A stretch of DNA of 64,000 bases from Pseudomonas sp. (lineage in GTDB: Bacteria; Pseudomonadota; Gammaproteobacteria; Pseudomonadales; Pseudomonadaceae), in the NCBI RefSeq assembly GCF_030698175.1, contig NZ_JAUYNT010000025.1, positions 105,712 to 169,711 on the forward strand. Direction: 5' to 3'. The translations under genes and the position numbers were made by a program. Below the pieces are notes generated by a model that ran no database searches, was not told the origin of the DNA, and saw only the letters and a program-made list of their open reading frames with translations. Positions 5,576-64,000 of the stretch are shown here, piece by piece (position 1 is the first letter of the stretch; each line of letters opens with the position of its first letter).

Positions 5576-6187
5576 ATGCGCCGCTACCCGCTGTTTGTAT
5601 TGTTGTTGGCCAGTCTGCTCGGTGGCTGCTCGAGCCCTGGCGCGTTTTTTGGTGACAGTGATGGGCCGCTGTTCAAGGCTCGCAGCCTCAGCGATGAGAA
5701 CCATGTCCTGGTCTACCTCTACCGGCCGCAGAGTGCTTGGGCGGATCAAGAGCTGGAAGCCCCCGGCCTGTTTATTAATAACCAACTGACTGGCAGCCTA
5801 CCGAGTAACGGCTACCTGGCCGTGGAGTTTGAGGTGGCCAGTTATCAGCTGGAAATGCGTCGGCCCTTGCTGGGCAGCTACTGGACGCTGATGGCGGAAA
5901 GCCCGATGGACTTTACCCGCATCGCCAGCTTCGCCCTGGACGCCGAGGCCGGCGCCACCTACTACCTGCGCTATGACGAGAGCAACCCGCCGCCCCACGA
6001 TGAGAGCTTGTCGGCCAGTGGCGACGGACCCTTGCAGCTGGTCTCGGCTAAGGTCGCCCTGCCGGAGCTGGCCGCCACCCACCGGGTGCAGCCGTTCGCC
6101 AGGATCGACGCCAACGGCGAGCATATTCGCGCCCAACGCGGCTTCTGGCGCTCGGTTGGGCGGGCGCTGGATAGTATCGGTATCTAA
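5576..6187 (+). CDS. DUF2846 lipoprotein
   Basis: 203 residues with a lipoprotein signal (LLLASLLGG-C-SSPG). The domain VLVYLYRPQSAWADQ... GLFINNQLTGSLPSNGYLAVEF is the DUF2846 pattern seen in many proteobacterial lipoproteins. A well-placed AAGGAGG lies seven bases before the ATG. Function is unknown; it is probably anchored to the periplasmic face of a membrane. It is a single gene, followed by a REPIN. Confidence 0.85.
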   Translation: MRRYPLFVLLLASLLGGCSSPGAFFGDSDGPLFKARSLSDENHVLVYLYRPQSAWADQELEAPGLFINNQLTGSLPSNGYLAVEFEVASYQLEMRRPLLGSYWTLMAESPMDFTRIASFALDAEAGATYYLRYDESNPPPHDESLSASGDGPLQLVSAKVALPELAATHRVQPFARIDANGEHIRAQRGFWRSVGRALDSIGI

Positions 6188-11949: not shown

Positions 11950-11957
11950 GCAGCATC

Positions 11958-12121
11958 GTAGGGTGGGTTAGCGGCGCGGGCAGTGATTGTTTGCAGCGCC
12001 GCGCCAGTCGAGCGCCGCGTAACCCACCATTGCTGTTTGCCGATAGACCGCATGGTGGGTTACGGCGCGGTCGGGCTTGGTGGTGTTGGTGTGACCCTGG
12101 TTCGCACCTAACCCACCCTAC
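11958..12121. repeat. REPIN-like element (GTAGGGTGGGTTAGC type)
   Basis: Starts GTAGGGTGGGTTAGCGGCGC and ends in the inverted CTAACCCACCCTAC. Internal inverted copies are CGCCGCGTAACCCACCAT and CATGGTGGGTTACGGCGCGG. The same layout recurs at 37.8 kb and inside the elements at 21.9, 32.6 and 44.7 kb. It fills the first half of the 387-base pruR-putA gap; the second half holds the putA control region. Confidence 0.9.
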
Positions 12122-12172
12122 AGCGCGCCAACGGCAGCCCTCAAACAAGCGTTTAGCGAAAGTTCCCGCTAT

Positions 12173-21827: not shown

Positions 21828-21926
21828 GGGTGCAGTGACATTCCCTGAGTGGAGTTCAATCGGCTGGGTTAGGCCACGCCCGCTCCCGGCGGGCTTGCGG
21901 CATTCACCCCATCCATGGGGATTGCG

Positions 21927-22138
21927 CGAACCATGGCCTGCCAACAACGCAAAACCCGACCGCGCCGTAACCCACCATGGCGCTCGACCGGCAAACCGCA
22001 TGGTGGGTTACGCGGCGCCCGGCTTGCGCGGTGATGCAAACAACCACCGTCCGCGCCGCTAACCCACCCTACGAATTACCGCGTACCAGGCATCGCCTAA
22101 CCGCCCCGCACGCTTCAACACACAACTGGTACATAGCC
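21927..22138 (-). mobile_element. truncated MITE, family A (minus orientation)
   Basis: Its right edge ends AACTGGTACATAGCC, the inverse of GGCTATGTACCAGTT. Internally it carries GTAGGGTGGGTTAGC-type palindromes. Its reverse complement matches the element at 44.68 kb over about 200 bp, including a GCGTGCGG...GGTTAGGCGA leader. The left end is lost at about 21927. It is followed by seven T residues. Bases 21828-21926 hold nothing I recognise. Confidence 0.75.
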
Positions 22139-22145
22139 TTTTTTT

Positions 22146-22410
22146 GGCGCGGCACTAGTTACCTGCTGCAAAGGGTCTGACCTTTCGAGGGGTTAGCCTT
22201 GATACTTGTGCTGCCTGCACCGGCCAATCGCGGATAAATCCGCTCCTACGGGGTTAGCCGGCCGATGAAATTGTTGTGGGTGCCGAGCTTGTGTAGGAGC
22301 GGATTCATCCGCGAAGCGAGCGCGAGCACACTGGCAATCCTGCAGGGCCACAACCGCTCTTTGTCCCACCTTCATCTGGGTCACAAACCAGAGACTACGA
22401 GACTTGCGCA
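22146..22410 (+). mobile_element. MITE, family B, right end replaced
   Basis: A degraded left end (GGCACTAGTTACCTGCTGCA) is followed by about 250 bp homologous to the complete element at 50.9 kb. Shared segments include CACCGGCCAATCGCGGATAA, GTAGGAGCGGATTCATCCGC, AATCCTGCAGGGCC and CATCTGGGTCACAAACCAGA. The homology stops near 22410, where another repeat begins. Confidence 0.75.
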
Positions 22411-22519
22411 GGCTACAGCTTTTGTAGGAGGGACTTTAGCCGCGATGGCTGTGCGTTGGTCGCGGCTAAAGCCCCTCCTACGAAGTGTGTGGCATCCAAC
22501 AGGTAACTGGTACAGAGCC
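22411..22519. mobile_element. short element with GTAGGAGGGACTTTAGCC REPIN
   Basis: Contains GTAGGAGGGACTTTAGCCGC and its inverse GCGGCTAAAGCCCCTCCTAC (22424-22481). It ends in CAACAGGTAACTGGTACAGAGCC-type right terminus, followed by eight T residues. The left part is truncated against the preceding element. Confidence 0.65.
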
Positions 22520-22537
22520 TTTTTTTTGCGCTGAACC

Positions 22538-22645
22538 TGTAGGTCGATTTTGTGGTGGGCTTTAGTCCACCAGCGCCGGGTAAGAGCCTTGGTGGGCTAA
22601 AGCCCACAAAAAAAGCTGCGTGCAACACGTAACTGGTACATAGCC
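22538..22645. mobile_element. short element with TGGTGGGCTTTAGTCCACC repeat
   Basis: Holds TGGTGGGCTTTAGTCCACCA and TTGGTGGGCTAAAGCCCAC. It ends with the shared right terminus AACTGGTACATAGCC at 22645, followed by eight A residues belonging to the oprN terminator. The segment CCCACAAAAAAAGCTG just before the end is shared with the element at 44.9 kb. Confidence 0.65.
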
Positions 22646-32614: not shown

Positions 32615-32735
32615 GGCTATGTACCAGTTACGTGTTGCACACAGCTTTTGCATGGTGGGTTACGCTGCGCCCGGCTTGCGCGGTGATGCAAACAACCACC
32701 GTCCGCGCCGCTAACCCACCCTACGAATTACCGTG
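32615..32735 (+). mobile_element. truncated MITE, family A
   Basis: Left terminus GGCTATGTACCAGTTACGTG is followed by TTGCACACAGCTTTTGCATG and then CATGGTGGGTTACGC...CTAACCCACCCTACGAATTACCG, homologous to the copy near 22.0 kb. The right inverted terminus is missing. Left flank is TTTATTTA. It ends against the DUF1272 gene stop. Confidence 0.75.
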
Positions 32736-32742
32736 CTGCGCC

Positions 32743-37805: not shown

Positions 37806-37970
37806 CGTAGGGTGGGTTAGCGGCGCATAACCCCGCAGGTTCGAACACTGCAATGCATGGGCGCCGCGTAACCCACCACGCGCTACAACGGTAGAGCACC
37901 ATGGTGGGTTACGGCGCAACCGGGTTCGGCGGTGTCTGGGCCACCCTGTTGTGCGCCTAACCCACCCTAC
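37806..37970. repeat. REPIN-like element between hpd and hmgA
   Basis: Begins GTAGGGTGGGTTAGCGGCGC and ends CTAACCCACCCTAC, with internal inverted CGCGTAACCCACCACG and CATGGTGGGTTACGGCGC. It has the same organisation as the copy before putA. It may attenuate or stabilise the operon mRNA. Confidence 0.9.
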
Positions 37971-40245: not shown

Positions 40246-40896
40246 ATGGATACTGAATTGGTGCTCTATTCCTACTGGCGCTCCAGCGCCGCCTATCGGG
40301 TGCGCATCGCGCTGAATCTCAAGGGCCTGAGTTATCGGCAGGTGCCGGTGCACTTGCTTAAAGACGGTGGTCAGCAGCATTCACCGGACTACCTGGCGCT
40401 CAATCCCCAGGGCTTGCTGCCGTTGTTGGTGGATGGGTCGACGACGATTGCCCAGTCCTTGGCGATTCTTGAGTACCTGGACGAGGTATTCCCGCTGCCG
40501 GCCCTGTTGCCGAGCGAGCCGGCTCAACGTGCCCAGGTGCGGGCGCTGGCACTGCATATCGCTTGTGATATTCACCCGCTGAACAACTTGCGGGTGCTGC
40601 AGTATTTGTCGGTCGAACTGGGGGTGAGCGATGAGGCGAAAGATGCCTGGCTCCGGCATTGGTTGGCGCTTGGTTTGGCGGCGGTGGAGCAGGGGCTGGC
40701 GGCGTTTGGCGGGCGATTGTCGCTGGGCGAGCGGCCGGGTTATCTGGAGGCCTGCCTGATCCCGCAGGTCTACAACGCCCGACGGTTTAACTGTGAGCTG
40801 CAGGCCTACCCGCGCATTCTCGACCTCTGCGCCCGCTGTGAAGCGTTGGCCGCCTTCAAGCAGGCCGCGCCCGAGCAGCAGCCGGATGCGCAGTAG
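40246..40896 (+). CDS. maiA: maleylacetoacetate isomerase
   Basis: 216 residues, zeta-class glutathione S-transferase. The active-site segment is LYSYWRSSAAYRVRIALNLKGL, followed by YLALNPQGLLPLLVDG and TIAQSLAILEYLDE, with the C-terminal helical domain. It isomerises maleylacetoacetate to fumarylacetoacetate with glutathione, the step before FahA. It is the last gene of the homogentisate operon. An unusually long 115-base gap with a duplication remnant separates it from fahA. Confidence 0.93.
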   Translation: MDTELVLYSYWRSSAAYRVRIALNLKGLSYRQVPVHLLKDGGQQHSPDYLALNPQGLLPLLVDGSTTIAQSLAILEYLDEVFPLPALLPSEPAQRAQVRALALHIACDIHPLNNLRVLQYLSVELGVSDEAKDAWLRHWLALGLAAVEQGLAAFGGRLSLGERPGYLEACLIPQVYNARRFNCELQAYPRILDLCARCEALAAFKQAAPEQQPDAQ

Positions 40897-40905
40897 CCGC
40901 TTTTT

Positions 40906-41051
40906 GTAGGATGGGTTGAGCTTGGCGATACCCATCAATCATTCAGAGACGCTCAGTTCACCTATCTCCGCTCGCCAAAACCGGCGCCGCCAATGCGCAC
41001 CTTGCAGTGACCTTGGTAGCGATGGGTATCGCTGCGCTCAACCCATCCTAC
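40906..41051. repeat. REPIN copy 1, GTAGGATGGGTTGAGC type
   Basis: GTAGGATGGGTTGAGCTTGG...ACCCATCA and the inverted TGATGGGTATCGCTGCGC-like GCGATGGGTATCGCTGCGCT...CAACCCATCCTAC bound a 146-bp element between the convergent maiA and phhB. A second copy of the same family is at 42333. The internal spacer differs between the two. Confidence 0.9.
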
Positions 41052-41064
41052 GGCTACATGGCGT

Positions 41065-42306: not shown

Positions 42307-42332
42307 ATTGCTTGAGTCGGTCGCAGCCTTTT

Positions 42333-42468
42333 GTAGGATGGGTTGAGCTTGGCGATACCCATCAACCATCACGCAGCGATCAATCCAGTCATACACACTG
42401 GCCAGGCCGGTGCTTTTCAGCGTTTAGCCCTGGCAGTGATGGGTATCGCTGCGCTCAACCCATCCTAC
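42333..42468. repeat. REPIN copy 2, GTAGGATGGGTTGAGC type
   Basis: Same bounding arms as the 40.9-kb copy (GTAGGATGGGTTGAGCTTGG and the inverted CGCTCAACCCATCCTAC), 136 bp, between phhA and phhR. The two copies flank phhA-phhB on both sides. Confidence 0.9.
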
Positions 42469-42503
42469 GATCTCGGTGCCCTAGCAATAGCGCAGTGCGT
42501 TGC

Positions 42504-44676: not shown

Positions 44677-44938
44677 GGCTCTGTAGCCGTTACGTGTTGA
44701 AGCGTGCGGGTCGGTTAGGCGACGCCTGGTGCGCGGTAATTCGTAGGGTGGGTTAGCGGCGCGGGCGGTGGTTGTTCGCATCACTGCGTAAGCCAAGCGC
44801 CGCGTAACCCACCATGCGGTTTGCCGGTCGAACGCCATGGTGGGTTACGGCGCGGTCGGGTTTTGCGTTGTTGGCAATCCATGGTTCGCGCCTAACCCAC
44901 AAAAAAAGCTGTGTGCAACATGTAACTAGGACATCGCC
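44677..44938 (+). mobile_element. complete 262-bp MITE, family A, with probable 8-bp target duplication
   Basis: Left end GGCTCTGTAGCCGTTACGTG and right end ATGTAACTAGGACATCGCC are inverted versions of the shared terminus. The flanks are TAATGAGT (44669) and TAATGAAA (44939), matching at six of eight bases. The interior carries four GTAGGGTGGGTTAGC/TAACCCACC palindromes and is homologous to the copy at 21.9-22.1 kb. It has no ORF of its own. Confidence 0.8.
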
Positions 44939-50897: not shown

Positions 50898-51188
50898 GGC
50901 TATGTACCCGTTAAGTGTTGCAAGGGTCGTAACCTTTCGTAAGAGGGAATTAGCCTGATACTTGTATTGTTTGCACCGGCCAATCGCGGATAAATCCGCT
51001 CCTACAGGGGTGGCCAGCCAATGTAATTGTTGCAGGTGCCGGGCTTGTGTAGGAGCGGATTTATCCGCGAAGCAAGCGCGGCACCTGCAATCCTGCAGGG
51101 CCGCAACCGTTCCTTTCCCCATACTCATCTGGGTCACAAACCAGATGCTACGGGACCTGCGCTTTGCAACAGCTAACGGGACATCGCC
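50898..51188 (+). mobile_element. complete 291-bp MITE, family B
   Basis: Left end GGCTATGTACCCGTTAAGTG and right end CAGCTAACGGGACATCGCC are inverted. Flanks TTTAGTTA and CTCAGTTG match at five of eight bases. The interior holds the pair TCGCGGATAAATCCGCTCCT and GTAGGAGCGGATTTATCCGC and is homologous to 22.15-22.41 kb. It fills the 315-base gap and ends one base before the metR stop codon. Confidence 0.8.
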
Positions 51189-58104: not shown

Positions 58105-59812
58105 GACTTCGCTTCCCCGGGCGCCGATAAATAAAACTGCCGGGTTGGTAGGGCACAAAGCCCTGTTCCTCGGCGACCAGGTTCAACCCGTCTTGCGGCC
58201 CGAGCACCAGAAATCCGTCCGCATGCAGGGAGCGTAGAAAACGTTGCAGCACCTGCCGTTGCAACTCGATATTGAAATAGATCATTACGTTGCGGCAAAT
58301 AATCAGCTGAAACTCGTTGAAGATGCCCTCCTCGGCGAGCGAGTGGCGATGAAACATAACGCGCTGGTGCAAGCGCTCTTCGACCTTGAGAAAGCGCCCG
58401 GTCGAGGCCACATGGCTATCGAAGCCTCGGGAACCGCCACTGGCGAGGTAGTTGCTGCGATTGCTGGCCAGCGGCCCGGCCGGGAATAGCCCGCTCTTGG
58501 CCAGCTCCAGCAGGTAATGATTGATATCGGTGGCAAACAGGTGGCTGCGCTCCAGCAGGCCCAGCTCGTCCAATAGCACCGCCAGCGAATAGGCTTCCTC
58601 GCCCGTCGAGCAACCGGCGGACCACAGCTTGACGATGGGAAAACTGGCCAGATAGGGCAGGATTTTTTCGCGGATCTCGCGAAACTGCTCGGGGTGGCGG
58701 AAAAAACTGGTAACCCCGACCGACAGTTCGGCGCAAAGGCGCTCAAACAGGGCCGCATCCGAGAGCACGGCACTCTGGAACTCGGGAAAGCTGCCCAGAT
58801 CGAAATGCACCATCAGGTTCCTGATGCGCCGCTCCAGGCTGTCACGTTGGTAGCCGCGAAAATCGTAGCCATACTGCTTGAGCAAGGCCTCCAGGAATAA
58901 CTCCAGCAGCGTCCCGCTCGGGCTGGCGGTCGCGCCGGCAACGGTGGCCGCCGCGACGCTGGTAATGGCGGCAGAACGCAGCACGTAATCGTAGAAGCCG
59001 GCCTCCCGCGCCGCGTCCGGCATGACCCGTGCTGGTTCGCACTCATCGCCATCTTCAACAATCACGCTGGAACCCACGGCCCGCAGTGCGCCGCAACCGG
59101 CAACGCCATCTTGGCCATAGCCGCACAGCAGCACCGCCAGCACCGCATCGCCATACTCGCTGGCCAGCGACTCGAACAGCGCATCAATAGAGGGTCGGGC
59201 GAACTGGATTTTGCGGTCGGCCGTTAGATAGACCAGGCCGTGCGCCACCTTCATGTGATAGCCCGGCGGTGCGACATAAAGGGTGCCGGGCTGCACTGGG
59301 ATTAAATGCTGCGGCATCACTACGGCATATTCAGTGCGGGTCTTGAGCAATTGGTCGAGCAGATTGGGTTGGTCCTCCTGAACGTGCTGGGCGACAAAGA
59401 TGGCCATCTCAGACAGCGGCAGTTGCGCGACAATGTGCAGTATTTTGTCCAGGCTTTGCGCTGAACCGGCCAGTGCCAAGGCGCGGCAGCGCCCCCGCGG
59501 GGAGCGCTTAACCTGGTTCGATACCTGCCGCACCGGCAGGTCAAGACGCATCAAGCTGTGGGCGAGTAGGGCGTGGTAGGCCACGATTTTTAGGCCGCCC
59601 GCGCGGTCCAGTCGCTGCGCTATAGTTTCGATGATTTCTGCCGGCAGGGTATCGGCGTCGTAGAAGGTCAGCTCAAGGGCGCTGCCAGCGCTGGCAGTCG
59701 GGAGCTGTTCTTGCAGTGCGGACTTGAGCGTTTCGCGCTCCTCAGTCGTGTCCAGATGACCGAGAATAACTGCCCGGCACAGGTTACCCATGGGCTGAAA
59801 AGTAATGCTCAT
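58097..59812 (-). CDS. CheB-CheR fusion protein (methylesterase plus methyltransferase)
   Basis: 571 residues from the ATG at 59812, which overlaps the kinase stop (ATGA). The CheB part (about 105-290) keeps its triad: Ser in ALAGSAQSLD, His in FVAQHVQED and Asp in LLCGYGQDGVAG. The CheR part (about 310-570) has TSFFRHPEQF, the SAM pocket LWSAGCSTGEEAYSLA and LIICRNVMIYF. The N-terminal 100 residues are not a recognised receiver. It has no chemotaxis neighbours, so it probably modifies or scaffolds the adjacent kinases rather than serving flagellar chemotaxis. Confidence 0.92.
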   Translation of the reverse strand: MSITFQPMGNLCRAVILGHLDTTEERETLKSALQEQLPTASAGSALELTFYDADTLPAEIIETIAQRLDRAGGLKIVAYHALLAHSLMRLDLPVRQVSNQVKRSPRGRCRALALAGSAQSLDKILHIVAQLPLSEMAIFVAQHVQEDQPNLLDQLLKTRTEYAVVMPQHLIPVQPGTLYVAPPGYHMKVAHGLVYLTADRKIQFARPSIDALFESLASEYGDAVLAVLLCGYGQDGVAGCGALRAVGSSVIVEDGDECEPARVMPDAAREAGFYDYVLRSAAITSVAAATVAGATASPSGTLLELFLEALLKQYGYDFRGYQRDSLERRIRNLMVHFDLGSFPEFQSAVLSDAALFERLCAELSVGVTSFFRHPEQFREIREKILPYLASFPIVKLWSAGCSTGEEAYSLAVLLDELGLLERSHLFATDINHYLLELAKSGLFPAGPLASNRSNYLASGGSRGFDSHVASTGRFLKVEERLHQRVMFHRHSLAEEGIFNEFQLIICRNVMIYFNIELQRQVLQRFLRSLHADGFLVLGPQDGLNLVAEEQGFVPYQPGSFIYRRPGKRSHD

Positions 59813-62800
59813 AGGTGCCTGCCCGCAGACCATTTGACCGCTTTGGCGAGCAGCTCGGCGTAGTCCACCGGTTTGGACAGGTAATCGTCGGCACCGGCGG
59901 CCAGCACCTTGTCGCGATCACCGGGCAAAGCCTTGGCGGTGATGGCCAAGACCGGAATAGCCGCCAAAGCCGGATTCTGGCGGATCGCCGTGATCGTCTG
60001 GTAACCGTCCATCTGCGGCATCATGATGTCCATGATCACCAGGTCAACGCGCTGCTGTTCGAGAAACTCCAGGGCCCGCCGACCGTTGATGGCATTGCTG
60101 GTTTTTGCCCCGTGTCGTTCGAGCGCCGCCGACATGACAAACAGATTGCGCGGGTCGTCGTCGGTCACCAGGATGTGTTTGCCGGCCAGCTGCTTGCTGT
60201 GGCTTGCGGGGCTAAGCGGCAGCTGCGCAGCCGCGCGCTCGCGCGGTACTTCATGCAGAAAACGTTCGACATTCTCCAGCAGGCGCTGCTCGGCCTGCGG
60301 GGTCTTGATGATCATGCTGTCCGAATAGCGGTGCAAGCTGGCGTTGTCCTCATCACTGAGGGCCGTGCTGCCATAAAACACCAAGGCTATTTCTGGGTTG
60401 CCGGCCCTGAGCGCCGCAGCAATGTCCAGACCTTGTTGCACTGCGGCCGCGCCCAAGTCGATGATTGCCAAGCGGCAGCCGTATTGCTGTAGCACCTCAA
60501 CCCACACGGCATTGGGCGCCACGCCGACCACTGAGTCACTCGCTGGGCCGACGATGCGGGCCACGTCAGCGGCGCTGATGTTGCCATTCTCGACCACCAG
60601 AATAGGGCTGCCGCTGGCCTGTACGACCGCGCCGAGCAGGGCGACCTCGACATCGGCGAGGCGCTTCTCGTCGACCGGTTTTTGCAGGAAACCGCTGGCG
60701 CCTTGGCGCATAAAGGCTTCATCACGATCACGCGCCGAGACTATATAGACGGGGGTGGCCGCTAATTCGCGGTTGCTCTTGAGCTCGTGCAGTACGTCGG
60801 CACCATCCATGTCGGGCAGGCCGAGGTCGAGCAAAATACCCTGCGGGCGATGACTGTGTGCCAAGGCCAAACCCTCGAAACCGGTGCGTGCGAGCAAGGT
60901 CTTGTAACCCAGGCGGCGGTTAATCAGCATCAGGGTTTGGCCCAGCACCGGGTCATCATCGATCATTAAAATAATCTGATCGTTGGCCGCCAGATTGTTG
61001 CGATCATCGTCCGTGGCTTCTGCCGGGACTGGCACGCTACCAAGGGCGGGGGCTAGCCGGGTGGCCGCCGGCGGCAGCTGGGGTATCTGGGCGGTTCTGG
61101 TTGCGGGTGCGGTATCGGGCAGCAGCAGGGAGAACTCGCTACCCTGGCCCGGCACGCTCTGCAGCTCAATGGTGCCCCCCAGCAGTTCGGCAAAACGCAG
61201 ACTGATGGTAAGCCCCAAACCAGTGCCGCCATATTCCCGTGAGGTTGAACCATCGGCCTGCTGGAATGCTTCGAAAATCAGGGCCTTTTGTTCTTGCGCA
61301 ATACCGATGCCGGTATCGCGCACGCTGAGACAGATCGGTAGAGGGCTGTTCGCACGGCGACTGAGGGTGAAGGTAACCCCCCCCTGCTTGGTAAATTTGA
61401 AGGCGTTGGACAGTAAGTTGCGAAGAATCTGCGACAGTTTTCCGCGGTCGGAGATGAATTCGCCCTGCAATCTGTCCTCAACCACCAGGGTCAGCCCCTT
61501 GTCGCGCGCTAGGTGCTCGAATACTTCTTGAAATTCGGCGCGCAAGGATTCGCTGGAGACCTTCACCCGCTCCAGGTCCATGCGACCGGCTTCTACTTTT
61601 GACAGGTCCAGCACGTCATTGATCAGGCGCAGCAGATCTTCGCCCGAGCGGTGAATGATCTCGGCCCATTTGACCGTCTCGTCCTCGCTCGCGCCCCGTT
61701 CATTGCTGGTCATCATTTTTGACAGCAGAATGATGGAGTTCAGCGGGGTACGCAGTTCGTGCGACATGTTGGCCAAAAACTCCGACTTATACTGGCTCGC
61801 CTGCTCCAGCTGTCGCGCTTTGGCGTCCATCAGATGACGGGATTCGCGCAAATCCTGGTTTTGCTGTTGCAGTTGTTGTTGTTGCTCCTCCATCTGTGCA
61901 TTGGTCTGCTGCAGCTCTTCGCTTTGTTGCTGCAACTGCTGCTGCTGTTCCTCCATCTGCGCATTGGTCTGCTGCAGTTCTTCGCTTTGTTGCTGTAACT
62001 GCTGTTGTTGCTCCTCCATGTGCAGGTTGACTTGCTGCAGGTGCTCGCTGTGCAAGCGCGCTTCTTTTTCTGCGGTTTCCGCAATGGTCAGCAGCTCACG
62101 GATATTTTCCCGCTGTTGCGCCACGTAGAGAAAAGAGGCGATCACCTCGGTCTCGCCGCTGAGAAACTCCTGCTTGAGTTCGTCGAAGCGCTCGAAGCTG
62201 GCGAGTTCCACCACCCCCAGCAAGCAGTCTTCGCGCAGCAGTGGGTAGGTATAGGTGTAGAGCGGCAGGGCGCTGCTGGTGCCGGTGACTATGGGCGCGG
62301 CGTCGGCGGCGATGGTGGTCAAGATGATCGGTTTTTTCTCCAGCGCCACCTGGCCTACAGCCCCCTGGCCGAGCTGGAAACGACTGCCCAGATTGGCCCG
62401 CTCGGTGTACATGTAACTGCCCAGCAGATCCAGGCTCGCTTCGGCCGCATGAAACAGGTAGAGCACCCCGCGCCCCGCGCCGAGATGGCGGCCGAGAACG
62501 CCGATAGCCGTATTGGCCAGCTGTTGCAGGGAGAAGTCGCCGGTCAGGGCGGTAGACAGCCGGCTATTGCCGTCTTTGAGCCAATTGCGCCGTTCGTCGT
62601 CGGTTTTGGCCGTGCGCAGCAGAGTATTCATGGTGCGGATCGCGTGACCGAGTCTGTCGTGCTGGGATAACAGCGAAATTTCCTGGGAAAAATCGCCGCG
62701 ACCGATGGCGTCGGCTTGCGTCGCCAAGCGCTCCATGTTTTCCATCAGCAGCTTGATGTTAGCCAGCAGACTGCCTTGGTCCCAAGGCTGAAGCTCGATC

Positions 62801-63627
62801 TGGGTGTCGAGGTTGCCACTGGCAATTTGTTTCACCAGTTCTTCGGCCATGGCCGGTTCAGCCCCAAGCCGGCGCAAAATCAAACGGTAAGCGACCCATA
62901 GGGTGATGATCAGCACCAGAATAGACACGGCCAGCAGGCTGTAGATTATGTATTCGCGACTATTGGCCTGCTGCGCTGCGCTATGGGTGGCGTCGAGGGT
63001 GCGCTGGTTGAGCAGGCCGAAGAAGTCATCCACCGGCGTCATGATTCGCACTTTATAGTCGTGGTAGGCGCGGTCGTGCATCATCGCAATAGCTTCGGCG
63101 ACCGTCGGTTGATCGGCCCGCCGCTTGCCCTCTTGGGTTGCGAGAACCGCGTCCATGGCCACGGTTTCGGTATGCACCAAGCCGTCCGAGTTAGCCTTGG
63201 CCTCTTCCAGCTTGGCCATTTCCGCCGCCGAGAAGCCCGCCTGCTTCATCAGTCCGGTCAAGGCTGCCGCCTCGCCATTGGGGCGCGGCGGCGTATCACT
63301 GGCGGCCAGGTAATCCCAATAGATGCGTTCGGGCGCTTGCGGTCGCGGTTTTTTGCCGTCGCGAATAGCCAGAATCGCAAAGTATTGCTGTTTGAAGCGA
63401 GGGTCGCCGGTGACTACATAGGTTCGGGCCAGCCGGGTCAGGTCGTCCGAACTCTGGCGCAGCTCGTCGGCCAGCAGGTAGGACTGATAGCGCGCCTGTA
63501 AGGCCCCGCTTAGTTCGCCGTAGGATGAGGTCAGGGACAGGGTGGCGGCGATGATCAAGGTCATCAGCAGGGTGATCACGGCCCCCAACAGCAAAAACAA
63601 TTGCTTAACGCTGAAGTGCTTAGTCAT
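59809..63627 (-). CDS. large membrane hybrid histidine kinase with GAF and three receiver-like domains
   Basis: 1272 residues. TM1 (LFLLLGAVITLLMTLIIAATL), a periplasmic helical sensor of about 200 residues, TM2 (YIIYSLLAVSILVLIITLWVAY), HAMP-like region, GAF at about 375-520, then a glutamine-rich coiled coil with 21-residue repeats. The kinase core has SHELRTPLNSI, NLLSNAFKF and GGTGLGLTISL. Then come a receiver (LLDLGLPDMDG), a pseudo-receiver lacking clear key residues (AIIDLGAAAVQQ), and a final receiver (VIMDIMMPQMDG, LSKPVDYAEL). It heads the operon with CheB-CheR and the RR-kinase. The signal is unknown. Confidence 0.93.
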   Translation of the reverse strand: MTKHFSVKQLFLLLGAVITLLMTLIIAATLSLTSSYGELSGALQARYQSYLLADELRQSSDDLTRLARTYVVTGDPRFKQQYFAILAIRDGKKPRPQAPERIYWDYLAASDTPPRPNGEAAALTGLMKQAGFSAAEMAKLEEAKANSDGLVHTETVAMDAVLATQEGKRRADQPTVAEAIAMMHDRAYHDYKVRIMTPVDDFFGLLNQRTLDATHSAAQQANSREYIIYSLLAVSILVLIITLWVAYRLILRRLGAEPAMAEELVKQIASGNLDTQIELQPWDQGSLLANIKLLMENMERLATQADAIGRGDFSQEISLLSQHDRLGHAIRTMNTLLRTAKTDDERRNWLKDGNSRLSTALTGDFSLQQLANTAIGVLGRHLGAGRGVLYLFHAAEASLDLLGSYMYTERANLGSRFQLGQGAVGQVALEKKPIILTTIAADAAPIVTGTSSALPLYTYTYPLLREDCLLGVVELASFERFDELKQEFLSGETEVIASFLYVAQQRENIRELLTIAETAEKEARLHSEHLQQVNLHMEEQQQQLQQQSEELQQTNAQMEEQQQQLQQQSEELQQTNAQMEEQQQQLQQQNQDLRESRHLMDAKARQLEQASQYKSEFLANMSHELRTPLNSIILLSKMMTSNERGASEDETVKWAEIIHRSGEDLLRLINDVLDLSKVEAGRMDLERVKVSSESLRAEFQEVFEHLARDKGLTLVVEDRLQGEFISDRGKLSQILRNLLSNAFKFTKQGGVTFTLSRRANSPLPICLSVRDTGIGIAQEQKALIFEAFQQADGSTSREYGGTGLGLTISLRFAELLGGTIELQSVPGQGSEFSLLLPDTAPATRTAQIPQLPPAATRLAPALGSVPVPAEATDDDRNNLAANDQIILMIDDDPVLGQTLMLINRRLGYKTLLARTGFEGLALAHSHRPQGILLDLGLPDMDGADVLHELKSNRELAATPVYIVSARDRDEAFMRQGASGFLQKPVDEKRLADVEVALLGAVVQASGSPILVVENGNISAADVARIVGPASDSVVGVAPNAVWVEVLQQYGCRLAIIDLGAAAVQQGLDIAAALRAGNPEIALVFYGSTALSDEDNASLHRYSDSMIIKTPQAEQRLLENVERFLHEVPRERAAAQLPLSPASHSKQLAGKHILVTDDDPRNLFVMSAALERHGAKTSNAINGRRALEFLEQQRVDLVIMDIMMPQMDGYQTITAIRQNPALAAIPVLAITAKALPGDRDKVLAAGADDYLSKPVDYAELLAKAVKWSAGRHL
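61831..62019 (-). repeat. 63-bp tandem repeats inside the hybrid kinase gene
   Basis: Three in-frame units of 63 bp start at 62019, 61956 and 61893. Two encode the same 21 residues beginning MEEQQQQLQQQSEELQQ and the third diverges after MEEQQQQLQQQ. Together with the preceding HMEEQ segment they form the coiled coil between GAF and kinase. The copy number could vary by slippage. Confidence 0.9.
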
Positions 63628-63862
63628 GGCTTGCCGCCCCTGTTGATCGACAATCTCGCCTAGTCCAGTGGAGTCACTGCAATGCCGTTGAACGCCACCC
63701 GCACCCTGGGTGCGTTCGCCTTAGGCTCAGTAGCCTAGGTGCAATCCAGTTTAGCAGCCGCTCCAAACTGTGCTTGGTGGCGACTGATCGCACTGGTCGC
63801 GCTGACCCGCCGGTACGGCTGCTGATGCGATTGGCGCAGCATGTTCAAGGTGTGTTTAAAAA

Positions 63863-64000
63863 GGCTCTGTACCCGTTAACTGTTGCAAGGTCTAAACTCA
63901 AGACGCGTGCTCATCAAGGAGTACCGTTATGGATGCCCAATCCTTTCAACACCTGCTGGTTCGGCTTGATCTGCTCACGATCAAACAGAAATCCATCGTT
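63863..64000 (+). mobile_element. left end of a putative insertion sequence (partial)
   Basis: GGCTCTGTACCCGTTAACTG followed by TTGCAAGG matches the MITE terminus seen at seven other places in the window. An ORF starts 66 bases inside. The AT-rich left flank is TTTAAAAA. The right part is beyond the window. Bases 63628-63862 between the kinase and this end show no gene. Confidence 0.6.
63929..64000 (+). CDS. putative transposase (partial, IS1595-like N-terminus)
   Basis: Only 24 codons are visible: MDAQSFQHLLVRLDLLTIKQ plus KSIV, with AAGGAG seven bases before the ATG. The pattern FxxLLxxLxxLTxxQ resembles the start of IS1595-family transposases that continue into a zinc ribbon, but the diagnostic parts are outside the window. 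The call rests mainly on the inverted-repeat-like terminus just upstream. Confidence 0.45.
   Translation, partial: MDAQSFQHLLVRLDLLTIKQKSIV

Follow-up and report, generated by a model that had tools for sequence, protein, structure and literature searches.

REPIN-type interiors in short elements with IS1595-type ends in a Pseudomonas genome

The window, the whole stretch of 64,000 nucleotides of Pseudomonas sp. DNA that was analysed, runs at its right edge into an IS, and contains short elements (MITEs) with the ends of this IS as well as bare REP-type units. The features are as follows.

63863..64000, plus strand: initial 138 bp of an IS1595-family IS that starts with the left end GGCTCTGTACCCGTTAACTGTTGCA and is truncated where contig C40 stops
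63855..63862, unstranded: left copy of the 8-bp target duplication TTTAAAAA, whose right copy follows the right end of the IS on contig C15
63929..64000, plus strand: codons 1-24 of the gene for the IS1595 transposase, which has 321 aa in the copy that is assembled
50898..51188, plus strand: family A MITE, 291 bp; its two type-A REPs start at 87 and 152 of the element, and the flanks, TTTAGTTA/CTCAGTTG, agree at only 5/8
44677..44938, minus strand: family B MITE of 262 bp that separates two PepSY-like genes and is flanked by TAATGAGT/TAATGAAA; three relatives have an empty site
22146..22519, plus strand: hybrid MITE, 374 bp, family A body and family D right part; flanks CTTTTTTT/TTTTTTTT
21862..22138, plus strand: remnant of a family B MITE that has lost its left end and keeps the right one (22138); identity to another copy 98%
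22554..22645, plus strand: REP-type palindrome and a single IS-type right end at 22645, with no recognisable left end
32615..32736, plus strand: family B MITE relic, right end lost; left end 32615-32649 joined to B core 32650-32736
40893..41053, unstranded: bare type-C REPIN unit without IS-type ends; homology from GTAGG to CCTAC
42312..42473, unstranded: bare type-C REPIN unit without IS-type ends
11956..12122, unstranded: bare type-B REP unit without IS-type ends
37806..37965, unstranded: bare type-B REP unit without IS-type ends

The minus strand at 59809-63627 also encodes a protein of 1272 aa that resembles hybrid sensor kinases and has a glutamine-rich coiled stretch with strong repetition (QQQLQQQSEELQQTNAQMEE).

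The 138 bp at the window edge matched, at 100% identity, the beginning of an element in the same genome (G000:C40:47331-48379; IS size 1.03 kb) that codes for a 321-aa protein, and the window stops at 64000 because contig C40 breaks inside the IS repeat. The ATG at 63929 starts a frame (MDAQSFQHLLVRLDLLTIKQKSIV...) that leaves the window and is identical to residues 1-24 of this protein; the transposase-like N-terminus proposed for it in an earlier sequence-only reading was thereby borne out, and the alternative that this ORF is no transposase failed. In profile searches, the 321-aa protein scored 188.6 bits against NF033547 (cut-off 75), which places it in the IS1595 family, and 44.2 against PF12762 (cut-off 27), and its N-terminal zinc-binding domain, of the kind common to IS1 and IS1595, matched NF050000 with 29 bits (cut-off 28). 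Across 11 relatives, C47, C50 and C71 of the zinc domain were invariant and C74 nearly so; D148, D225 and N263, the putative DDE/DDN catalytic triad, were invariant as well. The inverted ends of the IS are imperfect and both start with GG (GGCTCTGTACCCGTTAACTGTTGCA and GGCTATGTACCCGTTAACTGTTGAA, 23/25 identical). Transposase relatives at 50-70% identity occurred across many proteobacteria (88% for one partial match), the closest sampled being that partial protein from Pseudomonas sp. CC6-YY-74 (88%) and those of Aromatoleum and Polaromonas (69-70%), and a single IS1595 transposase was found in the whole genome. The window-edge element is an ordinary member of the IS1595 family, a family reportedly treated by Siguier, Gagnevin and Chandler in 2009.

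Five contigs stop ~135-140 bp into the IS left end and four inside the right end, and IS copies were counted by matching the 8 bp that adjoin each of these contig-end termini. The TTTAAAAA of the window copy paired with contig C15, which holds the IS right end, so that the right terminus sought downstream in the sequence-only reading was found with the same duplication; two further flank pairs were C20/C33 (TTTTTTAT) and C41/C1 (TTTTTATT). The sole fully assembled copy (G000:C40:47339-48371; L009 493-1525) has unmatched flanks and no duplication, and its two flanks have their partners on other contigs, TTAACTAA on C39 and TAAAAAAA on C32, which makes it either an assembler join or a recombinant of two IS copies; an old insertion was rejected as its explanation, as each flank matches a different contig end. 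No partner was found for the left end on C16 (ATAAAAAA). From these pairings we infer ~6 IS copies in the genome, five of them with exact 8-bp duplications paired across contig ends, and the copies sampled were 99-100% identical at their ends. Two copies (C32 and C16) lie one 8-bp step from a MITE end, and siting beside an existing element (2/6 IS copies, together with tandem MITE arrays) was weakly significant at p ~0.03 with a rough site count. Three copies (flanks on G000:C20, C41 and C40:47338) lie downstream of a GC-rich hairpin plus T-tract, likely terminators, such a hairpin preceding the element in 3/5 IS flanks. Insertion into terminator T-tracts was considered as a rule for the MITEs and dropped, with 4/22 MITEs vs 10/124 controls and no clear excess.

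A 16-mer of the IS terminus, allowing ≤3 mismatches, matched the window at 22138, 22519, 22645, 32615, 44677, 50898, 63863 and 5806, that is, 8 matches vs 0.14 expected, and 0/100 shuffles reached 8; the match at 5806, which has 3 mismatches and no flanking element, was taken as a chance match. A weight matrix added the partner ends 44938 and 22146, the latter being the degenerate left partner of 22519, and the end at 51188 is real, with a 1-base deletion. All termini that had been listed from the sequence were therefore recovered by these searches, with the correction that 44677 reads TGTTGAA and not the TGTTGCA ascribed to it. The ends at 22138, 22645 and 32615 are lone survivors of truncated elements. 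Genome-wide, the 25-bp end (≤3 mismatches) occurred 139 times, compared with 0 in the reversed control. These 139 termini, the ~6 IS copies and the ~40 paired short elements support the earlier proposal of a single autonomous IS and several families of short non-autonomous elements that use its ends.

The ~40 short elements, paired by weight matrix within the genome stretches examined rather than in the whole genome, are 127-374 bp long and, being so short, have no transposase gene. Their 8-bp flanks were identical in 11/39 pairs and agreed at 7/8 positions in 6 more, and were mostly A/T-rich; since both the IS and the short elements leave such duplications, the AT-rich 8-bp targets suggested earlier also hold. 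Further exact 8-bp duplications surround IS1595-ended elements in other genomes. One locus, 44677-44938, was compared with relatives 70-86% identical, and its site is empty in G013, G001 and G012, where the PepSY-like genes abut (ACTGATGAAACTGG in G013). The MITE at this locus splits genes whose stop and start abut in the relatives, and may change their coupling. In one tandem array the same 8 bp are reused, in the order TTTTTATT, 265 bp, TTTTTATT, 297 bp and TTTTTATT, which, like other arrays, suggests insertion beside existing copies. A shared or reused 8-bp duplication, or a spacing of 7-8 bp, was seen in the arrays L230, L217, L281, L308, L323 and window 22138-22645. The MITEs have diverged, and many are decayed or hybrid, so that much of their spread is old; in the hybrids (22146-22519, L229 and L215) ends and bodies have recombined.

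Alignment of the interiors of the short elements, which had no place in the sequence-only reading, gave four families, A to D, and hybrids, all built of GTAG-headed inverted palindromes (GTAGG...CCTAC), the structure of REPs and REPINs (PMC3116915, PMC3733652). Family A contains two REPs GTAGGAGCGGATTTATCCGCGA, family B GTAGGGTGGGTTAG...CTAACCCACCCTAC, family C GTAGGATGGGTTGAGC...CGCATCCTAC and family D GTAGGAGGGGCTTTAGCCGCGA. The genome has two RAYT-type genes, of which RAYT1 (C14) has type-A REPs on both sides, matching MITE family A, and RAYT2 (C34) type-C REPs on both sides, matching family C; for the type-B and type-D REPs, no matching RAYT was found in the genome. At L313 1238-1445 (G000:C14), half a family A MITE lies beside a RAYT gene; its homology starts precisely with the REP and finishes with a degenerate IS-type terminus. 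When the four bare units of the window were aligned with MITE-borne units, the homology ran from GTAGG to CCTAC. Among 100 listed type-A/D REPs, 23 had a listed IS-type end no more than 330 bp away, and several more lay in weaker-ended elements.

GTAG or GTGG palindromes, differing in type, were also found inside IS1595-ended elements of other genomes. Over 20 genomes, a REPIN palindrome was present in 63/78 elements, compared with 7/252 flank windows and 3/1560 dinucleotide shuffles; the 63/78 are not independent, as elements within a genome are mutual copies, and clustering of the interiors gave 14 groups, of which 9 are REPIN-positive. A clear or full REPIN was lacking in several elements of other genomes. 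The 149-bp elements of P. taiwanensis (G416), which have exact duplications, contain the genome's own REP. The REP types vary from genome to genome and are abundant in P. taiwanensis (293 copies), G070 (91) and G274 (62). In G256, the sole genome match (≤1 mismatch) to the REP GTAGGAGCCGGCTTGCTGGCGA lies inside an IS1595-ended element (C1:1976302-1976461; L290), and this REP possibly arrived horizontally, a hint from a single case with a degenerate right end.

A link between transposase and termini was apparent across 120 same-genus genomes, with transposase relatives counted at ≥49% identity: IS-type ends occurred in 9/9 genomes with a transposase vs 2/111 without (G065 and G094; Fisher p = 5e-12, ignoring relatedness). 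Such ends were present in 40/400 genomes. We infer that the short elements are moved in trans by the resident IS1595 transposase or by one closely related to it. This enzyme would recognise the 25-bp ends and insert at 8-bp A/T-rich sites, duplicating the 8 bp. The short elements, as their ends, duplications and empty site show, are non-autonomous partners that retain only the ends. As most interiors of the short elements are REPINs, they are composites, with a DDE-transposon shell around a RAYT-type hairpin. IS1595-ended MITEs thus repeatedly carry RAYT-type REPINs, and we consider, with a probability of about 0.8, a transposase-spread shell with REPIN cargo to be the best explanation.

Which transposase spread the shell can be read in another way, namely that a related IS1595-type enzyme, now lost here, did so and that the resident IS is a later arrival sharing its end sequences. 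Most MITE ends indeed belong to a sister subtype (GGCTATGTCCCAGTTA...) reading GGCTATGTCCCAGTTAYGTGTTGCA vs GGCTMTGTACCCGTTAACTGTTGMA in the IS, the near identity of the sampled IS ends contrasts with the divergence of the MITEs, and G065 and G094 have ends with no transposase detected. The ends of the MITEs at C18:58233 and C30:248997, however, closely match the IS end, two IS copies are separated from a MITE end by precisely one 8-bp duplication, and the genome yields one IS1595 transposase only; we thus lean somewhat against a lost enzyme, while taking it seriously. Palindromic interiors are frequent in MITEs, and the palindromes might be ordinary hairpins (terminators, or folding aids joining the two ends) unrelated to RAYT, with which the lack of a matched RAYT for types B and D in this genome would agree. 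We consider this very improbable, because the REPs that flank RAYT1 and RAYT2 are precisely those of types A and C, the same units are found bare and ending in GTAG/CTAC, in each of the three genomes measured the palindromes are of the REP type abundant in that genome, and the GTAG head is the signature that TnpA-REP requires for cleavage (PMC8266576).

The REPINs would have come into the shell by way of RAYT action or chance trapping. Most likely, RAYT-driven REPINs would have repeatedly landed between, or been trapped by, IS1595-type ends, and the shell would then have spread them as cargo. In families B, C and D, related left arms (...CAGCTTTT, containing CT) stand before REPs of different types, and TnpA-REP cleaves at CT beside the REP (PMC8266576), so that these arms are compatible with RAYT insertion, though suggestive only. 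The MITEs could instead have been newly made from IS copies or stray ends beside REPs, the commonest intergenic repeat, with no role for RAYT. The abundance and intergenic position of REPs fit such an origin, as do the recombined ends and bodies of the three hybrids and the existence of free REP units without ends; set against it are the appearance of the REPIN as a unit bounded by GTAG/CTAC between both arms and, suggestively, the related CAGCTTTT arms before different REP types. Formation without RAYT thus appears a plausible but not a probable course, and the shell with a REPIN cargo introduced by RAYT or by trapping is the reading that we retain.

The IS is of a familiar kind, and trans-mobilised MITEs are known already. 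For MITEs with a REPIN body, no account was found in a literature search limited to openly licensed PubMed Central papers, so that they may have been described before in other sources. It is held that only a vertically inherited RAYT copies REPINs, and that these undergo no significant horizontal transfer (PMC8049555). We tentatively propose, as a possibility that we rate below an even chance, that IS1595-type MITEs may serve as REPIN vehicles, by which RAYT-type repeats would be carried by a DDE transposase to new sites in a genome and from one genome to another, with the G256 case as a hint; if so, REPIN populations would be neither moved by RAYT alone nor strictly vertical. A DDE shell that regularly carried REPINs would add a second copying route and a possible entry to new genomes, and would alter the reading of REP copy numbers as RAYT activity.

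Compared with known systems, the resident IS shows no important difference from the IS1595 family, for example ISApl4 (PMC12561309), with which it shares the transposase profile, the 8-bp A/T-rich target duplications documented for this family, GG-starting inverted ends, a length of ~1 kb and the lack of a passenger gene. Like the trans-mobilised bacterial MITEs MITEPsy1, with ISPsy2 (PMC3189936), and MITEAba12 (PMC6382973), the short elements are ORF-free, have the ends of a co-resident IS and show target duplications; known MITEs are usually described as internal-deletion derivatives of an IS, whereas those described here have a REPIN, a second mobile repeat, as their body. An association of IS and REP is also shared with IS1397 and ISPpu9, ISs that target REPs (Tobes and Pareja 2006, as cited in PMC3116915); there the IS inserts into the REP, whereas here the REP unit lies within the transposon ends. 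With known REPINs and GTAG-REPs with RAYT (PMC3116915, PMC3733652, PMC8266576, PMC8049555), the repeats have in common the paired inverted GTAG palindromes, a cognate RAYT flanked by the same REPs and genome-wide bare copies; descriptions of those REPINs have them moved by RAYT alone and inherited vertically, whereas many copies here lie inside DDE-transposon ends with 8-bp duplications.
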